From positions 1 through 64,000 of the forward strand of contig CACJRY010000002.1 in NCBI GenBank assembly GCA_902595855.1: a stretch of DNA of 64,000 nt. The letters are read 5' to 3'. The translations under genes were made by a program, and so were the position numbers. Shown one piece after another: positions 8,866 to 49,561 of this stretch. Each line of letters opens with the position of its first letter. The first letter of the stretch is position 1. The DNA is from an uncultured Alphaproteobacteria bacterium (GTDB lineage: Bacteria > Pseudomonadota > Alphaproteobacteria > HIMB59 > GCA-002718135). Under the pieces are notes generated by a model, which saw only the letters and a program-made list of their open reading frames with translations, searched no databases and was not told the origin of the DNA.

Positions 8866-9584
8866 CCTTTTAATCTTAAAGTTGATCTACCCCCATCAAT
8901 ATGAAATATTTGACCAGTAATCCAGTTATTTTTTTGACCTAAAAGAAAAGATGCTAAAGCTCCAAAATCTTCACCCTGTCCTATTTTTGGTATTGGATGC
9001 ATACTTTCTATAGCCTTTCTTATATTTTCATTACTAACCATTTTTTGTGACATTTTTGAGTCAGTTAGGCTAGGTGCTATACAATTAACCCTGATTTTGG
9101 GCGCAAATTCTGCGGCTAAACTTAGGGTCAACCCTTCAATAGCACCTTTGGACGAAGAAATGATGGAATGATTTGTAAAACCCTGCTGAACTGCAATTGT
9201 TGAAAAAAGAAGAATTGATCCATTATTTTTAGCTAAACTTTCAATATTTGATTTAATTGCATTTATGGCTCCAAGGGTATTGATCTTAAAACTTTCAATG
9301 AAATCATCATCTTTAGTTATTTTAATTGGTTTTAAATTAATAGAGCCAACACAGTAAGCCAGTCCATTAACTGTATCTGCATGTTTTTTTGATATTTGAT
9401 CAATATGATCTTTTTCCAGAACATCACAAACTTCATATTCACAATTAATTTCTTTTGATTTTTTAATTAATTCTTCTTCATTTCTTGAAATAAGAATTGG
9501 AGAATAACCCTCCTCAGTTATTTGTTTTGCAATAGAAAAACCAATAGTTCCTGTTCCTCCAAAAATAAGCATTTTTTTACTCAT
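8862..9584 (-). CDS. SDR family oxidoreductase
   Basis: IFGGTGTIGFSIAKQI, SSKGAIEGLTLSLAAEFAPKIRVNCIAPSLTDSKM. Confidence 0.88.
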   Translation of the reverse strand: MSKKMLIFGGTGTIGFSIAKQITEEGYSPILISRNEEELIKKSKEINCEYEVCDVLEKDHIDQISKKHADTVNGLAYCVGSINLKPIKITKDDDFIESFKINTLGAINAIKSNIESLAKNNGSILLFSTIAVQQGFTNHSIISSSKGAIEGLTLSLAAEFAPKIRVNCIAPSLTDSKMSQKMVSNENIRKAIESMHPIPKIGQGEDFGALASFLLGQKNNWITGQIFHIDGGRSTLRLKG

Positions 9585-9585
9585 A

Positions 9586-10629
9586 TTAAACTCCTCTGAT
9601 TGTTGATTTGAAATAAGCTAAGAATAAAACTGATAATAAAAGTATTGAGTTTGCTTGATGTAAGCTGGCATATTGTATGGAAACATTTGATAGTAAGGCC
9701 ATCACTCCAAGAAAAAATTGCAAGCTTAGTATTAACAATACAAGAACAGTAATTTTTTTTTGTAACTCTATAAACTTACTTATAAATAAATATAAAAATA
9801 GTGAAAATGTATATATGAAAGTTATAGTGGCTATCCATCTGTGATTAAAATTTATTGTGACAGTATTTTCAAATAAATTAAAGATACCCATTTCCTCTAA
9901 GTAAATATCATCTGGTATAATTTTTCCATTCATTAATGGATAAGTATTAAACGATTGACCTGCATGTGAACCTGCCATAAAACCACCACTTAAAATAGTT
10001 ATAAAAACAAGTAATATAGATACAAGTATTAAGGATTTTTTAGATTTAATATCTATGAAATTTTTGCTTGTTAAATGAAAATATTCAATCGTTGTCCAAA
10101 GCAAAAGTGCATAAATAATAATTGCATTAGATAGATGAAATGTTAATCGATAGGGACTCACGTAAGGGTCGTTTTGAAGCCCACTTTTAACCATCCACCA
10201 GCCGACTAATGCCTGTATTAAACCCAGACTAAAAATAATAGTAAATCTTTTATAGAAAAAGATATTAAGATATTTTTTGAAATAGAAAAAAAGAAATGGC
10301 AATACAAAAACAACACCAATTAATCTTGCAAAGAACCTATGAAACCATTCCCACCAAAAAATATATTTAAATCCTTCTAATGTAATATTTTTATTAACGT
10401 ACAAATATTCGGGAGTTTGTTGGTAGTCGTTGAAAACTTTTAGCCACTGACTTTGATTTATGGGAGGTAAAGTTCCAAGCAAGGGACGCCAGTCTACCAT
10501 AGAAAGTCCTGAGTCGGTAAGTCTGGTCAAGCCTCCTATTATAATTATCAAGAAAACCATTATGGTTAATAATATTAGCCATAACATCACTGGTTTATGA
10601 TAATTTAAGTTTAAGTCAGTAGATTGCAT
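9586..10629 (-). CDS. ctaA: Heme A synthase, COX15/CtaA family
   Basis: GGLTRLTDSGLSMVDWRPLLGTLPP, EWFHRFFARLIGVVFVLPF, GSHAGQSFNTYPLM. Confidence 0.94.
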   Translation of the reverse strand: MQSTDLNLNYHKPVMLWLILLTIMVFLIIIIGGLTRLTDSGLSMVDWRPLLGTLPPINQSQWLKVFNDYQQTPEYLYVNKNITLEGFKYIFWWEWFHRFFARLIGVVFVLPFLFFYFKKYLNIFFYKRFTIIFSLGLIQALVGWWMVKSGLQNDPYVSPYRLTFHLSNAIIIYALLLWTTIEYFHLTSKNFIDIKSKKSLILVSILLVFITILSGGFMAGSHAGQSFNTYPLMNGKIIPDDIYLEEMGIFNLFENTVTINFNHRWIATITFIYTFSLFLYLFISKFIELQKKITVLVLLILSLQFFLGVMALLSNVSIQYASLHQANSILLLSVLFLAYFKSTIRGV

Positions 10630-10642
10630 AAAAGTTAATATA

Positions 10643-10652
10643 TTGTATACAA
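10643..10652. promoter_or_regulatory. Palindrome TTGTATACAA (putative MarR operator, copy 1)
   Basis: Exact palindrome in the intergenic space between divergent heme A synthase and the reductase gene; same core repeated twice before the MarR gene. Confidence 0.65.
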
Positions 10653-10681
10653 ATAGTAATAAAAGTTGTTATTTAAATCCC

Positions 10682-11695
10682 ATGATTGAAAAAACTGATG
10701 TCATAGTTATTGGAGCAGGACCAGTAGGTTTATTTGCTATTTTTGAGCTAGGTTTGCTGAATATTTCTTGCCATGTAATTGATAATTTGGATAAGCCTGG
10801 CGGTCAATGCGCTGAACTTTATCCAGAAAAACCAATTTATGACATCCCATCAAGGGTTAAGATAACTGGGCAAGAGCTAACTGATGATTTATTGGCACAG
10901 GCTAAACCTTTTAATCCAGTATATCACTTAAATCAGCAAGTTGAAAAAATAACAAAATTAGAAACAAATGAATGGATCGTTGAAACAAGTCAAAATAAAA
11001 AAATACAAGCAAAATGTATAGTAATTGCAGCTGGAGCAGGCAGCTTTGTACCTCGAAAAATACCAATTGATAATTTTGATCATTTGGAGGGTAAAAATAT
11101 TGTCTATGCAGTTAGAAATAAATCTTTATTTGAAAAGAAGAAGATCATGATAGTTGGTGGTGGAGATTCTGCTTTAGATTGGACAAATGAGTTGTCAAAA
11201 ATAGCTGATGTGACTTTGATGCATCGTAGAAAAGAATTTAGGGCCGCACCTGACTCTGTTTCTAAAATGCTTGAATTAGAAAAAGATAAAAAAATAAATT
11301 TTTTATTAGGTCAAATCGATAATTTAGAAGATCTGAAAAATGGACAAATAAATGTCATAGTAAAAAACAAAGATGAAAAGAAAAATTTTGAGGTTGATTA
11401 TTTACTTCCATTTTTTGGCCTAAAAATGGAACTTGGACCAATTGCAAATTGGGGCCTTAATTTAGATGAAAATTTAATTAAAGTAGATACAGAAAAGTTT
11501 GAAACTTCAGTTTCTTCAATCTTTGCAATAGGAGATATAAACTCCTATCCTGGAAAATTGAAATTAATTTTATCTGGTTTTCATGAAGCTGCTTTAATGG
11601 CGCAACAATGTTTTAAATATTGTTTTCCAGATAAAAAAAATGTATTTCGTTACACTACATCATCAAAAGAATTGCAAAAAAAATTAAACTCTTAA
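10682..11695 (+). CDS. NAD(P)/FAD-dependent oxidoreductase, ferredoxin/flavodoxin-NADP reductase-like (TrxB-type)
   Basis: VIVIGAGPVGLFAIFELGL, GGQCAELYPEKPIYDIP, IVGGGDSALDW, FAIGDINSYPGKLKLILSGFHEAALMA; ATG at 10682 preferred because the track start (TTG 10643) lies in the palindrome. Confidence 0.88.
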   Translation: MIEKTDVIVIGAGPVGLFAIFELGLLNISCHVIDNLDKPGGQCAELYPEKPIYDIPSRVKITGQELTDDLLAQAKPFNPVYHLNQQVEKITKLETNEWIVETSQNKKIQAKCIVIAAGAGSFVPRKIPIDNFDHLEGKNIVYAVRNKSLFEKKKIMIVGGGDSALDWTNELSKIADVTLMHRRKEFRAAPDSVSKMLELEKDKKINFLLGQIDNLEDLKNGQINVIVKNKDEKKNFEVDYLLPFFGLKMELGPIANWGLNLDENLIKVDTEKFETSVSSIFAIGDINSYPGKLKLILSGFHEAALMAQQCFKYCFPDKKNVFRYTTSSKELQKKLNS

Positions 11696-12003
11696 TGAAA
11701 ATTAAAGTAACTGATCGAGAAGGAAATAAACATGAATTAGAAGGAGATGCAAACTCCACTCTTATGGAAATTTTAAGAGATGCAGGTCTTGATATTGAAG
11801 CTGCATGTGGAGGATGTTGTGCCTGTGCTACATGCCATGTCTATATTGCTGATAAATGGATTGAAAAAATCAATGAAAAAGATGATGATGAGGAATCAAT
11901 GCTTGATCAAGCATTTGATGTTAAAGATACTTCAAGATTAAGCTGCCAAATTAACCTTTCTGATGATTTAGATGGTATTGAATTAGAATTGGCTCCAGAT
12001 TAG
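11695..12003 (+). CDS. 2Fe-2S ferredoxin
   Basis: CGGCCACATCHVYI ... LSCQI cysteine pattern. Confidence 0.94.
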   Translation: MKIKVTDREGNKHELEGDANSTLMEILRDAGLDIEAACGGCCACATCHVYIADKWIEKINEKDDDEESMLDQAFDVKDTSRLSCQINLSDDLDGIELELAPD

Positions 12004-42074: not shown

Positions 42075-42539
42075 TTATGTATATTTAGAATTGAAATAAA
42101 TAAGAGGTTTTAGTTTATCATTAAATTTAACTTTAAATACTTTACAAATAAATATGATATGATCCCCCTTTTTTATTTTATCTTGTATTTTACACTCTAA
42201 GTTGGATATACAATTTTTGATAATAGGAATTCCATTTCTTAAAAGCTGGTAGTCAATGTCTTTCCAATCTGGTTTTTTTTGTGCGAAGTTATCAGAAATA
42301 AATTTTTGTTTTTTGCTCAAAACATTTATTGAAATATATTTAGTATTTCTGAAAATTTTTAATTTTGAGGATTTTACATCAAGTGAAAACAATACCAAAG
42401 GTGGAGAAAGGGATAGCGATGAAAATGAATTAATTGTCTTTCCAAATAATTCAGAGTTTTTATTTGTCGCAATAACTGTAATACCAGTTGAAAATTTTGA
42501 TAATGTTTTTTTAAAGTTCTGTGAATTTACTTTTTTCAT
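42075..42539 (-). CDS. Flavin reductase family protein
   Basis: KFSTGITVIATNKNSELFGKTINSFSSLSLSPPLVLFSLD. Confidence 0.88.
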   Translation of the reverse strand: MKKVNSQNFKKTLSKFSTGITVIATNKNSELFGKTINSFSSLSLSPPLVLFSLDVKSSKLKIFRNTKYISINVLSKKQKFISDNFAQKKPDWKDIDYQLLRNGIPIIKNCISNLECKIQDKIKKGDHIIFICKVFKVKFNDKLKPLIYFNSKYT

Positions 42540-43036
42540 AAATCTTTTTGCATGATTATGGTGTCAATCCATTTACCTTTTTTGTAGCCAATATTTTTTA
42601 ATCTACCACAATTTTTAAAACCTAATTTCTTATGAACTTTAATTGATCCAACACTATCTATACTTCCTATTACTGCAACTATTTTTTTTATTTCTTTATT
42701 TTTTTTTGATGAAGTGATCAGTTTTTTTAATAATCTAAAACCTAGGCCTTTTTTTAAATAATTATGATGTATATATATTGTATTTTCAAAAACAAATCTG
42801 TAACCGCTTTTATCTCTAAATTTATTTAAATATGCAATACCAACTAATTTTTCATCAATCATTGCAGACAGATAAGGTAATTTCATTTTTGTAATATTTT
42901 TATAATTATGGGTAAAATCACCAAGACTAACTTTTTTTTCTTCAAAATTTGAGAAGGAATTATTTATGTAATAATTATATATTTTTAGTGCATCTCTTAA
43001 ATTCTTTTTTAGAAGAGGGGTTATTACTAAACTCAT
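42536..43036 (-). CDS. GNAT family N-acetyltransferase
   Basis: YIHHNYLKKGLGFRLLKKLI acetyl-CoA site, IGSIDSVGSIKVHKKLGFKNCGRLKNIGYKKGKWIDTIIMQ. Confidence 0.9.
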   Translation of the reverse strand: MSLVITPLLKKNLRDALKIYNYYINNSFSNFEEKKVSLGDFTHNYKNITKMKLPYLSAMIDEKLVGIAYLNKFRDKSGYRFVFENTIYIHHNYLKKGLGFRLLKKLITSSKKNKEIKKIVAVIGSIDSVGSIKVHKKLGFKNCGRLKNIGYKKGKWIDTIIMQKDL

Positions 43037-43091: not shown

Positions 43092-43166
43092 GGGTGCGTA
43101 GCTCAGCGGTAGAGCACTGCCTCGACACGGCAGGGGTCACAGGTTCAATCCCTGTCGCACCCACCA
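43092..43166 (+). tRNA. tRNA-Val(GAC), CCA encoded
   Basis: Hand fold: acceptor GGGTGCG/CGCACCC, D-arm GCTC..GAGC, anticodon stem CTGCC/GGCAG with loop TCGACAC, T-arm ACAGG-TTCAATC-CCTGT, 3' CCA. Confidence 0.93.
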
Positions 43167-43483
43167 GTATTTAATCTTTATCTAAATAAGAACAAATGTA
43201 TCCTCGTAATTCAAATGATTTATTGGTTGTGGCATATTTCAGCTTAAACTAAAAACTTTTACAGAATCACAATAATCTGATGATACACAAAGATTACTGG
43301 AAATTATTATTGAGTCTAAAAAATATAAATAAAATATGCTATGTATTTATATAATTTGTTAATTTAAAATATGTAAGAAATATTAAAAGCTATTTATAAG
43401 GTATTAAATTATTTAAAAAAGGTGTTAAAATTTTATATTTCATAAAAAATATCAAAATTGGGTCTGGAAAACAGGATTCATTA

Positions 43484-44614
43484 TTGAATAGTAATGAGGT
43501 TTTTAGAGAAACGAATTTGATGTTTCTCGGAACAAATTCTGATAACAATTTTATAATAACTGATATGGTTAATTTTGGTTTTTTATCAATATTTCCTTTT
43601 TTCTCTAAGCTCCTAGAAATTAACATAAATATAGTGATAAGTATTTTTTTTTTAGCTATTTTTTTAATTAGTTTAGCTCTGACAATTCTGTCTGTAATTA
43701 TATTAACAAAAAATAAAGTAAAAAAAATATTTCTAATAACTCTTACTTTATTTATTTATTATATTCTTTATGAAATCATACTCATAAAACATGCAGAGTA
43801 CTTTATTTATTTTTTTTGGGGTATTTTACCAATCTCAACTTTTTTAATTTTTAAATTAAGTAGAAAATATATATTTATTTTATTATTACTTTATTCTTTT
43901 TTAATTCCATTATTAGGATCATTAGTTTATTTTTCATTCTTAGGATTTTTTATTTTTTTGAATTTAATAATTTTAAGCTTGGATACAAATATCAAAATTA
44001 AAATTAAATATTTAACATTTCCTTATTTTGCAGTATTAATTTTGTATTTTTTTACAGAGTTATCAAATAATTACTCACAAATTAATTTAAAAAAAATTGA
44101 CCCAACTGCTGAGGTAAAGATATTAAGAAATGTTGGTAATAATTTAATACCAACATTATATGCAGGAATGGGCTTCATAAATAGTGATAATTTTAAACGT
44201 GAGTTTAGTGACAATGAAATTTTAAAATTAATTGGAAAAGTAGATGCTAACGAAAATAAAATTATTAAAAACTCAATAAGAAATCAAACTCAAATAACAA
44301 ATACAGATATTCAAATTCTAAAGAAAAAAATATTAAACATAGTTTTAGAGAATCCTTTGTTTATTTTTAGACTTTATACGGCTAAAATAGGTGTTTTGAT
44401 TGGTTATTTTATAGTGATTTGTAATATTTCTTTAATATTCTTTTTCTTAAATATTAAGAAAAATATATTTGGTGTCCCATTATTGTTTAACTTATTTTTT
44501 TCATCATTATTTCCAATAATTTCTATTCCATCTTTTATTTATTCTCTACCTTTTATTGCTTCAAGCATATCAATTTATTATTTTTCTATAATATTTAATA
44601 AGAAATTAATTTAA
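43484..44614 (+). CDS. Multi-pass membrane hypothetical protein, possibly 5'-truncated
   Basis: Track start is TTG at 43484; frame is open upstream to a stop at 43397-43399 with no ATG; many hydrophobic helices. Confidence 0.6.
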   Translation: MNSNEVFRETNLMFLGTNSDNNFIITDMVNFGFLSIFPFFSKLLEININIVISIFFLAIFLISLALTILSVIILTKNKVKKIFLITLTLFIYYILYEIILIKHAEYFIYFFWGILPISTFLIFKLSRKYIFILLLLYSFLIPLLGSLVYFSFLGFFIFLNLIILSLDTNIKIKIKYLTFPYFAVLILYFFTELSNNYSQINLKKIDPTAEVKILRNVGNNLIPTLYAGMGFINSDNFKREFSDNEILKLIGKVDANENKIIKNSIRNQTQITNTDIQILKKKILNIVLENPLFIFRLYTAKIGVLIGYFIVICNISLIFFFLNIKKNIFGVPLLFNLFFSSLFPIISIPSFIYSLPFIASSISIYYFSIIFNKKLI

Positions 44615-44618
44615 ATAA

Positions 44619-45248
44619 ATGAAAAATTTCTATTATCTAACTTACATAGTTAATTTAATTATTTTGTTTGTTATTTTTTTAAATTTAATTAACATTGAAA
44701 GCTTTAATTTTTTTAAAAATTATTTTGATTTAAAAAACAAATTTTATACAATATTTTTCTTATCTTTAATTTATATATTAATGGTTATACTTAATATTCC
44801 TTTGACACCATTTATTACTACCTTTAGTGGTGCCTATCTTGGAGTTTATGAAAGTTTTTTCTATATTTTTTTATGTTCATCATTTGGTTCTTATCTGTCT
44901 CTACTTTTAAATAGATATATTAATGATAAAGAATCAATTTTTAAAAAAAAATTAAATAAATATAATCTTTTATTTGAGCCATCTTTCTATCATATATTAA
45001 TACTTAAAATTTTACCTATAATGCCTTTTTCATGGGTAATTATTTATACAAGTAATACAAGGTATAGCTCAAATAAATTTCTTTTAATAAATATGATTGG
45101 ATGTACCCCGAATATACTTTTATTTTCAAATCTAGGAAAAGCAATTTTAGATAATAATTTAAAGTTTATAATTTTAATTTTTATAATATTTATTTTTTTA
45201 ATTTTTATAAGCTATTTATTAAAAGATTATTTTCTAAAAAAAAGATAA
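44619..45248 (+). CDS. VTT-domain (TVP38/TMEM64-like) membrane protein
   Basis: LNIPLTPFITTFSGAYLGVYESFFYIFLCSSFGSYLSLLLNRY, LKILPIMPFSWVIIYTSNTR, IGCTPNILLFSNLGKAI. Confidence 0.75.
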   Translation: MKNFYYLTYIVNLIILFVIFLNLINIESFNFFKNYFDLKNKFYTIFFLSLIYILMVILNIPLTPFITTFSGAYLGVYESFFYIFLCSSFGSYLSLLLNRYINDKESIFKKKLNKYNLLFEPSFYHILILKILPIMPFSWVIIYTSNTRYSSNKFLLINMIGCTPNILLFSNLGKAILDNNLKFIILIFIIFIFLIFISYLLKDYFLKKR

Positions 45249-46093
45249 TAAAAGTATCTAATAATAAGATTAGAGGATAAGTATAAAAATAATTTAAAAT
45301 TAAAAATGTGAAACTTTTTCTTAAAGTAGTATACGTATGTTTCTTTTAGAAGTTTTTCACGATATTTTAGAGCTTCTTTATCAAAATTTTTATTAATTAT
45401 AGGTTCAGAAATATAATTCTTGCTTAAAGAGCTATTTATATACGTAGCAGTTTTATATATTTTCGAGCTATTTGAGCTTTTAGCAAATCTTAAAGCCAGC
45501 AATATTCTTGTTTTGTTTGTCTTGTTTGCATATGAACCATGAAGAATATTACCATGATGAATTGAAAATTCACCAGGTTCTAATTCTAGAAATTTTCTTT
45601 TTTTATTTTCAACATTTACACTTTGGAAATTTGCTAACAGATTATCAGATGATTTTTCTTTTATATGAACTTCTTGATTTAAGTGAGATTTTGGGACTAC
45701 AACAAGGCAGCCATTATCTTTAGTGCTTTCAGTTAAAGCTAAAGAGACTGTAAGACAATCTGAATTTTTAAATTGCCAGTATTTTAAATCTTGATGAAAT
45801 GATACAAATTTTGCATTTTTTTTATAAAAAAGAAGTGAATTCCAGCAAACTATATCTTTGCCTAAAATCTCTTCAACTTTTTCTTTGATTACTTTGTCAA
45901 AAAGTATTTCATTATATGATTTAAATAATAGATGGACCTTATATATCATTTCATTTTTTAATAAAATATGTGGTGAAAAATGATTATGATAATTATTATT
46001 AAACTCATTGACTAGAGCTGATGCCTTTTCTAAATTAAAAGCTCTAAATTTATATAAATAACCATTTTCGTTGTAATATTTTTTCAAACTCAT
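45227..46093 (-). CDS. Phytanoyl-CoA dioxygenase (PhyH) family protein
   Basis: FHQDLKYW (HxD), SLALTESTKDNGCLVVVPKSH, FSIHHGNILHGSYANKTNKTRILLALRF. Confidence 0.87.
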   Translation of the reverse strand: MSLKKYYNENGYLYKFRAFNLEKASALVNEFNNNYHNHFSPHILLKNEMIYKVHLLFKSYNEILFDKVIKEKVEEILGKDIVCWNSLLFYKKNAKFVSFHQDLKYWQFKNSDCLTVSLALTESTKDNGCLVVVPKSHLNQEVHIKEKSSDNLLANFQSVNVENKKRKFLELEPGEFSIHHGNILHGSYANKTNKTRILLALRFAKSSNSSKIYKTATYINSSLSKNYISEPIINKNFDKEALKYREKLLKETYVYYFKKKFHIFNFKLFLYLSSNLIIRYFYYLFFRK

Positions 46094-46125
46094 ATAATAA
46101 AAATTAATAAACCATAATCACGTAT

Positions 46126-47148
46126 ATGATAAGTACATTAAATAAAATTAATACGGCTTTTGAGATTTTTAGAGCTAATAAAGGTTTTGCCTCTAAATTC
46201 AATTTTGCAAAATGTATTCTTTATAATTTAACACCTTCTAAATATAGGCCCCAAAGTCTTAATTTTTTTCCTATATCTTCTACTATTTATGTGAATACGA
46301 TTTGTAATTATAGATGCTCTTTTTGTTTTTTAATTAATGATGATCACAAGGGAAGTAAGAAATTTAATTTAACCTTGGATCGTTTTAATGAGTTGATAGA
46401 GCATGATTTTTTAAGATATTCAGGAAGAATTACTTTAGGTGGAGGAGAGCCATTTTTAAATAAATATATATTTGATTTTATTAAAATTTTAAAAAGCAAC
46501 AATAAAGTTATTTCAATTTATACTAATGGTTCTCTATTAGATAGGCTATATGATTCATATATGGACAATCAGGTAAATTATTTAAATATTAGTCACTATG
46601 ATGATAAGTTCGCATCTTTAAGACATATCTTTAAAAGAATAAATTTTGATAAAAAAAGAACATCAATAACGAGGTTGAGTAAAATTGTTACTAATGAAAA
46701 TTTTTATGAATTAGAAGAAGTATTCGACGAGGCGACAGCTTCGGGTTTTGATAGAATAATTTTACAAAATTATTTTCCTTATAAAAAAGATGAAAAAGAC
46801 TTAGTTATTTATAAAGATAATAAAGATTTTATTAACACTCTTAATTCCTTAAAGAAAAAACATAAGAAAATTAAAGTAATTGAACCCAATTTGTTAAGTC
46901 GGCGTAATAAAAAATTTTCTTGTAACAATTTATCTTTAAATAGTACTATTGACTCTGAGGGCAACCTATCACCTTGTTGTTTTTTAACTCCACCTTCACC
47001 GTTAAATGGTAATATATTTGATGAAAATTCAAACCCTTGGAATAGTTTTCAATTTTTAAAATTTAGAGAAAAATTAGGGGAAAATTCAAGTCCAAAAAGT
47101 TGTGAATTTTGTTATTTCAAGCACGGCATTGAAAATCGAGTATTTTAA
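46126..47148 (+). CDS. Radical SAM protein with SPASM-like C-terminal cysteines
   Basis: CNYRCSFC (CX3CX2C), TLGGGEPFLN, C-terminal FSCNNLSLNSTIDSEGNLSPCCFL and SCEFCYFK. Confidence 0.88.
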   Translation: MISTLNKINTAFEIFRANKGFASKFNFAKCILYNLTPSKYRPQSLNFFPISSTIYVNTICNYRCSFCFLINDDHKGSKKFNLTLDRFNELIEHDFLRYSGRITLGGGEPFLNKYIFDFIKILKSNNKVISIYTNGSLLDRLYDSYMDNQVNYLNISHYDDKFASLRHIFKRINFDKKRTSITRLSKIVTNENFYELEEVFDEATASGFDRIILQNYFPYKKDEKDLVIYKDNKDFINTLNSLKKKHKKIKVIEPNLLSRRNKKFSCNNLSLNSTIDSEGNLSPCCFLTPPSPLNGNIFDENSNPWNSFQFLKFREKLGENSSPKSCEFCYFKHGIENRVF

Positions 47149-47852
47149 TTTTTATCATTAGTAAAAAGATAATGAAAAGATTCAAAAATAAATTGAATTA
47201 TTAAACTAATTCTAACTTTAGAAAATTTATTATTATCTCTAATTTTTACTGGTATATCTTTGTATTGTAGGTTTCTTTTGTAGTTTAATAAGAAAAATTG
47301 AGTATCAAAAAAATAATTATAAGGTTTTAAGTTTTTAATAAAATTATTATCCACTCTAAACATTTTAATACATTGAGTATCTTTATGTAACTTACGAAAA
47401 AAAATAGTTCTTAGAAAAACTTTTGAAAAAAAACTTATTATCTTTCTAGATATTGGTCTAATTTGCTTTGATTCTCTATGATCTTTTGGTCCATAAACAC
47501 AAAAAACAAGTTTGTTTTTATCAAGAATATTATAAGCTGATTTATAAAATTGTCGATCCCATGCGTTATCCAGACTAGCTATGCAAGCTAGTGGCTTTGA
47601 AGTAAAGTTTAATGCATCAATAATTGCATAACCTCTTCCTCTTTTCTTATTTTCAATAATAATTAAATTATTATATTTGAATTCTTTTGCTAAGGTAAGT
47701 GTGTTGTCTTTACATCCATTCAGTGATAAAATTAATTCACTATTTTCTGTATTTGATTTATGCCAATTAATCCAATTAGCTAAATTAGATATCCTTTTTG
47801 ATTCATTATAGACTGGTAATATAAATGCACAATTATTTATTTTTTCTGTCAT
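47145..47852 (-). CDS. Glycosyltransferase family 2-like protein
   Basis: CAFILPVYNESKRISNLANWINWHKSNTENSELILSLNGCKDNTLTLAKEF, RGRGYAIIDALNFTSKPLACIASLD. Confidence 0.83.
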   Translation of the reverse strand: MTEKINNCAFILPVYNESKRISNLANWINWHKSNTENSELILSLNGCKDNTLTLAKEFKYNNLIIIENKKRGRGYAIIDALNFTSKPLACIASLDNAWDRQFYKSAYNILDKNKLVFCVYGPKDHRESKQIRPISRKIISFFSKVFLRTIFFRKLHKDTQCIKMFRVDNNFIKNLKPYNYFFDTQFFLLNYKRNLQYKDIPVKIRDNNKFSKVRISLIIQFIFESFHYLFTNDKN

Positions 47853-47991
47853 TTTAAGACAAGTAACACATAAAGTTAATTCAATACATAATAAAAAATT
47901 GTAATTTTTTTTTCTTTTAAAATTAACTCAATTTATCTTAATATAATTTTACTATAATTATTTGATGTTTTTATTTTATAAGGCATTATCT

Positions 47992-48012
47992 GCTATTGAA
48001 ATTTTAAAATTT
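47992..48012. repeat. Direct repeat copy A, GCTATTGAAATTTTAAAATTT (21 bp)
   Basis: Exact match to 48227-48247. Confidence 0.85.
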
Positions 48013-48160
48013 AAACTGAATATTTTGCCTTTAAATCAGTATACATAAAAAACATTCAATTTTTTTTGAACCAAAATCACCTCACACTTTATTTTCCCAA
48101 AATTAAAATAATAAAAAAATCTTATGAAATCAGGAAAAAAAATAAATTTCTTTCTTTCTA

Positions 48161-48210
48161 GCATTCCCTCGATAGTAGGGTCACAGGTTTAATCCTTGTC
48201 GCACCGACCA
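48161..48210 (+). pseudogene. Degenerate duplicate of the 3' half of tRNA-Val(GAC), candidate att remnant
   Basis: gcattccctcgatagtagggtcacaggtttaatccttgtcgcaccgacca aligns with gcactgcctcgacacggcaggggtcacaggttcaatccctgtcgcacccacca of the tRNA at 43092; the last 30 nt differ at 3 positions. Confidence 0.85.
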
Positions 48211-48226
48211 AATATTAATATTTTCA

Positions 48227-48247
48227 GCTATTGAAATTTTAAAATTT
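48227..48247. repeat. Direct repeat copy B, GCTATTGAAATTTTAAAATTT (21 bp)
   Basis: Exact match to 47992-48012; the two copies bracket the tRNA remnant. Confidence 0.85.
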
Positions 48248-48674
48248 GATATATTTAGTGTATATGATCAAATGTTTTATAGTTGCTGCTCTATTAGCTT
48301 CAATTATTTTTTTAATTATAGATGTAATTTGGCTATCTTATGCAACTAAATCTTTCTACAGACCATTATTAGGTGATCTAATTTCTGATAAACCAGTATT
48401 ATGGGCCGCTGGCTTATTTTATCTTTTATATATGTTTGGTATGGCTGTAATAGTTATACAACCTTGCATAGAGCCTAGTGGATTAACTAAATCTCTATAT
48501 ACAGGTTTTGTATTTGGCTTAGTTGCTTATGGAACTTACAATTTAACTAATATGGCAGTCATTAAAGATTGGTCACCCACAGTAGTATTTGTAGACATGT
48601 TTTGGGGGGGATTCTTAACAGCCGTATCTGCTACAACAGGAATTTATTTAGCAAAAAAAATAGTTCATTTTTAG
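48246..48674 (+). CDS. DUF2177 family membrane protein (start probably ATG at 48264)
   Basis: FLIIDVIWLSYATKSFYRPLLGDL, YNLTNMAVIKDWSPTVVFVDMFWGGFLTAVSA. Confidence 0.88.
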   Translation: MIYLVYMIKCFIVAALLASIIFLIIDVIWLSYATKSFYRPLLGDLISDKPVLWAAGLFYLLYMFGMAVIVIQPCIEPSGLTKSLYTGFVFGLVAYGTYNLTNMAVIKDWSPTVVFVDMFWGGFLTAVSATTGIYLAKKIVHF

Positions 48675-48679
48675 CTAAT

Positions 48680-49561
48680 TTATTTCGACCTATCTATATT
48701 AAAATATAATAACTCTTTAAGTACTGGATATTTTTGAAATTCATTTTTATTTTTTTTAATAAAATTATAAATATTTTCTTCACAAAAATTAATTGTATTT
48801 TTTTTACCAATTATACTTAACAATGTTCTTTTGCCTTGTTTTTTATCCTTTCCAGGTGTTTTTCCAATCGCTTTAAATGAATTTACTTCATCTAATAAAT
48901 CATCCATAATTTGGAATATTATCCCAAACAACGCACCATAGTTTTTGCTAAATTTAATTCTCTTATTAGTTTCACCCTTAATTATAAAAGGTGCAGCAAA
49001 AGAAAATTCAAATAGTTTTCCAGTTTTTTTACTGTACATTTCTATAATTTTTTTTCTACTAAATGTTTTATTTTCATATAATAAGTCCAAAGATTGACCA
49101 CCAGCTAAACCATTATAACCAGTACATAAAGTTAAATAATTAATTAGTTGCAAATTTTTTTCTTTGCTAATTTTTGTTAAACTTTCAGATAACAATTGAA
49201 ATGCAAAATCATGTAAAGCATCACCTGCTAATATAGCAGTCGCTTCACCATATTTTTTATGAGTGCTTAGTTTTCCTCTTCTAAAATCATCATTATCCAT
49301 ACTTGGAAGATCATCATGAATTAGGGAGTATGAATGTATAGATTCTATTGAAGAAGAAATTATCATAGCATTTTTTGTTGACAAATTTACAATTTTAGAA
49401 GACTCAGACACTAAAAAAGTTCTTATTCTTTTACCTCCATTAATAGAGCTATATTTCATTGCTTTTGCTAACAAACTATTATCAAGTTTTTTTTGCAATA
49501 TTTTATTGTAAAATTTATCAAATTTTAACTTGTTTAGATCTATTAACCTATTTATGTTCAT
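48680..49561 (-). CDS. ispA: Polyprenyl synthetase (farnesyl/geranyl diphosphate synthase)
   Basis: GGKRIRTFLV, SLIHDDLPSMDNDDFRRGKLSTHKKYGEATAILAGDAL, FQIMDDLLD. Confidence 0.94.
   Translation of the reverse strand: MNINRLIDLNKLKFDKFYNKILQKKLDNSLLAKAMKYSSINGGKRIRTFLVSESSKIVNLSTKNAMIISSSIESIHSYSLIHDDLPSMDNDDFRRGKLSTHKKYGEATAILAGDALHDFAFQLLSESLTKISKEKNLQLINYLTLCTGYNGLAGGQSLDLLYENKTFSRKKIIEMYSKKTGKLFEFSFAAPFIIKGETNKRIKFSKNYGALFGIIFQIMDDLLDEVNSFKAIGKTPGKDKKQGKRTLLSIIGKKNTINFCEENIYNFIKKNKNEFQKYPVLKELLYFNIDRSK

Follow-up and report, generated by a model that had tools for sequence, protein, structure and literature searches.

The five genes that separate tRNA-Val(GAC) from its conserved downstream neighbour in the 64-kb stretch of DNA analyzed here (the window, 64,000 nucleotides) form a genomic island that was inserted site-specifically at this tRNA gene. 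We consider it very probable that the island was brought by a tyrosine integrase, which was either lost or acted in trans. The position is an insertion hotspot with variable cassettes, a familiar type of site that is newly mapped in this group of bacteria. Evidence comes from the sequence of both junctions, from empty and differently occupied sites in relatives, from further tRNA 3' remnants and from one integrase gene located at the same tRNA.

Junctions of the island at tRNA-Val(GAC)

ARAGORN and Rfam agree on a single tRNA in the window, and the original prediction had proposed that this intact gene and a 3' remnant in the same orientation 5 kb downstream bracket five accessory genes of a tRNA-anchored island. 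Both tRNA sequences and five ORFs between them were recovered (Table 1). In a genome-wide search, positions 48178-48210 matched tRNA positions 43-75 with 91% identity over 33 nt (E 6e-7), and the tRNA 3' copy together with flanking sequence gave a match of 46 nt at 83%. The remaining match of the tRNA query reported in the 1.47-Mb genome that contains the window (38 contigs, 84% complete) reached 73-74% and is located on a separate contig (C5:60373-60446). Almost all genomes of the genus yield a 74% match to the same query; wherever the locus was retrieved and scanned, it proved to be tRNA-Gly(GCC).

Table 1. Features of the tRNA-Val(GAC) locus in the 64-kb window
Feature	Position	Strand	Evidence or remark
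GNAT acetyltransferase, conserved left neighbour	42536..43036	-	PF13420 2.6e-15; syntenic in relatives
tRNA-Val(GAC), intact	43092..43166	+	Target gene, restored at left junction (attL side); collinear with G098 empty site
Inserted island, 4,993 bp	43167..48159		Not present in G098, the closest relative, whose site is empty
Cargo 1, multi-pass membrane protein, no family	43484..44614	+	No Pfam match; open frame extends back to 43427
Cargo 2, VTT/DedA-domain membrane protein	44619..45248	+	PF09335 1.3e-10
Cargo 3, phytanoyl-CoA-dioxygenase-like Fe/2OG oxygenase	45227..46093	-	PF05721 3.8e-24; PDB relatives PhyH, EctD
Cargo 4, radical SAM/SPASM protein	46126..47148	+	PF04055 3.2e-14, PF13186
Cargo 5, GT2 glycosyltransferase	47145..47852	-	PF00535 1e-9; weak GtrB-like match phrog_841 6e-6
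tRNA-Val 3' fragment, decayed	48160..48210	+	Displaced host end (attR side); collinear with empty site into DUF2177 upstream region
Native sequence after tRNA-Val, upstream of DUF2177	48220..48247	+	Same sequence after tRNA-Val at G098 empty site
DUF2177 membrane protein, conserved right neighbour	48246..48674	+	PF09945 3.5e-38; synteny
ispA-like polyprenyl synthetase, conserved flank	48680..49561	-	PF00348 4e-50; synteny

The junctions were compared with G098, which is closest to the window on the tree of the left flank and carries an empty site. G098 aligns to the left side of the window through the CCA of the tRNA and to the right side from within the fragment, via ACCA and native DNA, into DUF2177, and the overlap of the two junction alignments consists of the tRNA only. 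In the alignment to this empty site the remnant starts with AGCA at about tRNA position 21 on the 3' side of the D arm, is interrupted by small gaps within the anticodon stem and continues past the CCA into the native downstream DNA. A restored tRNA gene on one side in combination with a displaced 3' end on the other side is the signature expected for a tRNA-targeted island (PMC4383910). A second copy of the native DNA that follows tRNA-Val is present at the right end of the island (47985..48012, plus strand; 93% identity to 48220-48247).

An integrase or transposase gene was not found within the island interval, as had been stated before. The base composition, which had been suggested as an additional check, gave a mixed result: at 21.5% G+C the island lies below all other equally long segments sampled across the window (mean 27.7%), but low values are seen in the left flank too (22-25%), and therefore composition alone is weak evidence for an island.

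Empty and occupied sites in the genus

The gene order GNAT (-), tRNA-Val (+), DUF2177 (+), ispA (-) and guaB (+) is kept in the genus. A survey of 102 genus genomes yielded 74 loci with a full-length match to tRNA-Val, and 73 were counted after exclusion of G089, where the match is a degenerate tRNA-like sequence on the edge of a contig. Most relatives that have named records are single-amplified genomes labelled as uncultured Alphaproteobacteria (AG-447, AG-414, AG-905 and others). At 56 of the 73 loci the site is empty, with DUF2177 at most 140 nt 3' of the tRNA and an uninterrupted order on the 3' side, and at the other 17 a cassette is located immediately 3' of the tRNA. The succession of GNAT, tRNA-Val, DUF2177 and ispA that the original prediction had proposed to look for in strains lacking the cassette is thus found in the closest relative as well as at most of the counted loci, and other cassettes, the second point of that check, are present at this position in 16 further genomes. 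Among the 52 genomes of the HIMB59-like family, one tRNA with ~80% identity was seen; a 3' remnant of tRNA-Val was missing at E<=1e-4.

Conservation of the same five genes and the remnant throughout the clade is excluded, since neither the radical SAM protein nor the membrane protein encoded by the first cargo gene has a homologue elsewhere in the 102 genus genomes. Matches to the radical SAM gene at E<=1e-15 were also missing from the 162 order genomes searched, and its protein had none in phage records. For the PhyH protein the genus holds distant paralogues only (~33% identity).

Of the 17 occupied sites, ten are closed at both ends (the window, G024, G008, G106, G069, G091, G061, G082, G095 and G032, the last one by ispA, with no DUF2177 found), and seven run off the contig (G103, G035, G108, G101, G086, G080 and G027). 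The cargo differs in nearly every occupied site; one gene is common to the cassettes of G108 and G027. Gene names of the cassettes were in part read from the sequence rather than scanned. The closed cassettes comprise a TPR/O-GlcNAc-transferase-like protein (G024), a GT2 with an NAD-epimerase and a membrane protein (G008), a beta-barrel, a GNAT/aldo-keto-reductase and a PhyH-like protein (G106), two SGNH-hydrolase-like proteins (G069), an arylsulfotransferase (G091), PhyH (G061), a cytosine-5 DNA methyltransferase (type II) next to an unassigned neighbour that is a probable restriction enzyme (G095), and a urease gene cluster (G032). GDP-sugar and glycosyltransferase genes (G086), a prim-pol (G035) and a tyrosine integrase followed by a MORN-repeat protein (G103) were found in cassettes that run off the contig.

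Every occupied site begins after an intact tRNA CCA. At the far end, 36-37 nt before DUF2177, the remnant of G095 is perfect over 45 nt and that of G082 matches at 40/44 nt (four substitutions); the two begin at the anticodon arm, and none of 300 shuffles scored as high. At the corresponding position G091 has a weaker match that is more strongly decayed (p ~0.04 versus shuffles), and a convincing tRNA remnant is missing in seven of the ten closed sites. As the closed sites other than these three and the window show none, the remnants form a series from perfect to unrecognizable. Variants of the T arm (AAATCC, GAATCC or AAGTCC) are found at 4/17 occupied versus 1/56 empty loci, a difference that is confounded by relatedness and that would be in line with tRNA 3' halves derived from the inserted elements.

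On the 68-row left-flank tree, parsimony needs 13 changes of occupancy, of which at least 10 are forced by well-supported branches. In one genome (G020) a separate insert of 2.7 kb lies 5' of tRNA-Val, so not every insertion in this region uses the tRNA 3' end.

Insertion mechanism and competing explanations

An integrase gene at the site was detected only in G103 (PF00589 4.6e-22, phrog_1 4e-51), where it starts just 3' of tRNA-Val in the same orientation. It is a member of the phage integrase family. PF00589 was found in 0/10 closed occupied sites, and in the 84%-complete genome of the window its only representative is a conserved Xer-like recombinase on another contig. Viral contigs contained no exact match to a 27-nt tRNA-Val attP, and their relatives of the G103 integrase are distant (at most ~35% over the full protein) and showed no link to an att site.

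Based on the junctions, we assume that an element bearing a copy of the tRNA 3' half would have recombined with tRNA-Val in the region of the anticodon stem-loop. The tRNA beside GNAT would have been restored using the 3' half of the element, and the 3' half of the host would have been pushed to the far side beside DUF2177, where, released from selection, it would be decaying. Most likely the recombining enzyme was a tyrosine integrase resembling the one located at the same tRNA in G103. As the island has no integrase of its own, the enzyme was probably lost or acted in trans; later loss seems to be the most likely account, with action in trans as the alternative. The suggestion of a decayed or integrase-less island fits these data, and both decay and movement by an integrase in trans are compatible with it.

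It is possible, though distinctly less probable, that the cassettes are brought in by homologous recombination between the conserved flanks, as in a replacement-type flexible island. The tRNA would then be a mere safe intergenic boundary, and the remnant would stem from a donor in which an integrase had been active in the distant past. The genes of the left flank reject a grouping of the window with G098, G020 and G001 (p 0.005) and those of the right flank a grouping of the window with G098, G026 and G097 (p 2e-8), both p values being indicative since the groups were chosen post hoc. These conflicting histories imply that homologous recombination also reshuffles the region. The shortage of integrases and visible remnants in most occupied sites and the 5' insert of G020 point in the same direction. 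Flank recombination is opposed by the fact that the occupied sites all begin behind an intact tRNA CCA, that three of them have a tRNA 3' fragment exactly at the far end, and that the empty site of the closest relative has clean tRNA-bounded junctions; an integrase event in the donor would still be required.

Integrase-mediated insertion at tRNA-Val could also have taken a different form, in which cargo-only satellite islands flanked by tRNA 3' ends never had an integrase and are mobilized in trans by the integrase of a helper element. None of the ten closed islands (1-5 kb) encodes PF00589, and relatives harbour one integrase-bearing and one prim-pol-bearing element at the same site. Nevertheless, plain loss of the integrase accounts for the same data, an excised form was not seen and the viral contigs gave no exact attP, and we regard satellites of this kind as unlikely. 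Slightly more doubtful still is the specific proposal that a trans-acting tyrosine integrase moves integrase-free cassettes of ~1-5 kb and 1-7 genes that end in a tRNA 3' copy. If true, the site would provide streamlined marine bacteria with a cassette-exchange locus, somewhat integron-like in outcome, and the islands would be spared a recombinase of their own.

Two further explanations are highly improbable. The remnant, with its limited length and identity and its small gaps, might be a chance match or a paralogous tRNA pseudogene rather than the scar of an attachment site, but this reading is refuted by the alignment to the empty site, and the significance of the genome-wide match, the identical strand and side, the collinearity with native downstream DNA and the recurrence of remnants in G095 and G082 argue against it as well. 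Likewise, sibling records in the genus are assemblies of single-amplified genomes, and amplification can join unrelated DNA, so the island might be an assembly chimera. Yet its edges are the tRNA and a fragment of this tRNA, located where relatives would lead one to expect them, and cassettes occupy this site in 16 other genomes.

Relation to known islands and predicted cargo functions

The island belongs to the tRNA-targeted genomic islands and, among flexible genomic islands, to the additive ones; it is of the anticodon-loop type and lacks its own integrase. In accordance with the Islander definition of tRNA/tmRNA-targeted genomic islands (PMC4383910), an intact tDNA and a 3' fragment of the same tDNA are located at opposite edges, the fragment lies downstream in the same orientation, the interval is inside the range of 2-200 kb and the target site is empty in relatives (G098 and 55 other loci). 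The fragments begin at the anticodon arm, which fits the class of anticodon-centred sites (class A) in that work. Unlike Islander islands, the interval contains no integrase gene and the fragment is decayed with small gaps; for lack of an integrase gene the Islander filter would reject this island.

As in the additive flexible genomic islands of aquatic bacteria (PMC4033161), differing cassettes are present or absent among relatives at one chromosomal position. One such island, fGI-2, is located at tRNA-Lys in Methylopumilus and has repeats of the tRNA 3' end (PMC10872708). The site described here differs in its target, tRNA-Val(GAC), in the short length of the cassettes (~1-5 kb for those closed on both sides) and in the fact that flanking integrases or transposases are mostly missing, G103 being the only genome with an integrase at the site. 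A cargo island bordered by a tRNA in a streamlined marine bacterium also resembles the tycheposons described for Prochlorococcus and reported in Methylophilaceae (PMC10872708); we do not use this term because a tyrosine recombinase is not present in the island. The phosphate and phosphonate islands of the HIMB59 order (PMC10734472) share with this locus a fixed position and flexible content, and the two very probably belong to the same order, but cargo and function differ. The main text of that study mentions tRNA once and integrase never, and does not describe the tRNA-Val site.

With empty and occupied alleles both bracketed, a hotspot of gene exchange is mapped here in a marine group that is abundant, uncultured and genome-streamlined. 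As the cassettes carry genes as diverse as those for urease, restriction-modification and surface sugars, the site can be tracked in single cells and metagenomes, and the near absence of integrases in these short islands turns integrase loss versus mobilization in trans into a testable question.

Regarding the cargo of the window itself, the GtrB-like GT2, the VTT/DedA protein and the multi-pass membrane protein together suggest that a sugar or lipid moiety is transferred at the cell surface, and the most likely role judged from the protein families is modification of a cell-surface glycan or lipid. The oxygenase and the radical SAM protein could tailor the transferred group. DedA proteins have been linked to the recycling of undecaprenyl-phosphate. 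Compared with an O-antigen conversion (gtrABC-like) cassette, the similarity of the GT2 to GtrB is weak, a VTT protein stands where a GtrA-type flippase is expected and the first cargo protein, which would have to be the serotype-specific membrane transferase of such a cassette, belongs to no family; its structure prediction without an alignment reached a pLDDT of 49. An antiviral (viperin) reading of the radical SAM protein was not adopted, as the PADLOC matches are weak and a SPASM domain is also present. Surface-sugar genes are also found in several of the alternative cassettes at the tRNA-Val site.

Possible traces of further insertions at tRNA-Val

The left (42075-43036) and right (48246-49561) flanks of the site, on the GNAT and DUF2177 sides, respectively, yield strongly conflicting phylogenies for the window and its relatives; the relatives G026 and G097, which rank with the nearest genomes by their left flank, have a DUF2177 that is only about 60% identical. 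A 28-nt direct repeat marks the right end of the island, the five-gene insert behind tRNA-Val(GAC). One copy is native DNA following tRNA-Val and the other, 235 nt upstream within the island's right end and with no tRNA remnant preceding it, may be the trace of an earlier insertion or duplication.

Relative G082 carries two tRNA-Val copies besides the intact one, which suggests that its site holds two stacked islands. In G089, a tRNA-like sequence lies on the DUF2177 side at a contig edge; its 3' end is Val-like and its anticodon arm differs (loop TCGAAAA, GAA-like). It is possibly an element-borne chimera. The glycosyltransferase insert of G020 (2.7 kb) adjoins GNAT on the 5' side of tRNA-Val, and the region therefore takes insertions by another route too.

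Coordinates of additional features (L-numbers, individual loci; C6, another contig of the window's genome)
Feature	Source	Position	Identity
28-nt direct repeat, island copy	window	47985-48012	93%
28-nt direct repeat, native copy	window	48220-48247	93%
tRNA-Val, full-length degenerate	G082 (L121)	+980	
tRNA-Val, 3' fragment	G082 (L121)	+2360	
tRNA-like sequence	G089 (L151)	10-84	
Glycosyltransferase insert	G020 (L028)	about 9241-12002 (window's orientation)	
Tyrosine recombinase	window's genome (L153)	969-2105 (C6, about 68468-69604)	

A probable second tRNA hotspot in relatives

Integrases were also observed near tRNA-Gly(GCC) in several relatives (L155-L161: G031, G097, G003, G072, G081, G018). 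With two tRNA-Gly copies each in G031 and G097, spaced 3-6.5 kb, this gene is probably a second hotspot in these relatives.

A genus-conserved tyrosine recombinase

A tyrosine recombinase of about 365 aa, compared in the window's own genome and 20 relatives (L245-L264), is conserved across the genus and often the sole match of its genome to the phage-type integrase family PF00589; no XerC/XerD equivalog scored above the NCBIfam cut-off. Immediately upstream of its start lies an inverted repeat. All 20 relatives share the core TTACGATAA-CTGTAA-TTATCGTAA; the window's genome has GTATGATAA-GTGTAA-TTATCATAC, with concerted changes in the two arms. Recombinase and repeat appear to form a single-recombinase Xer/dif pair.
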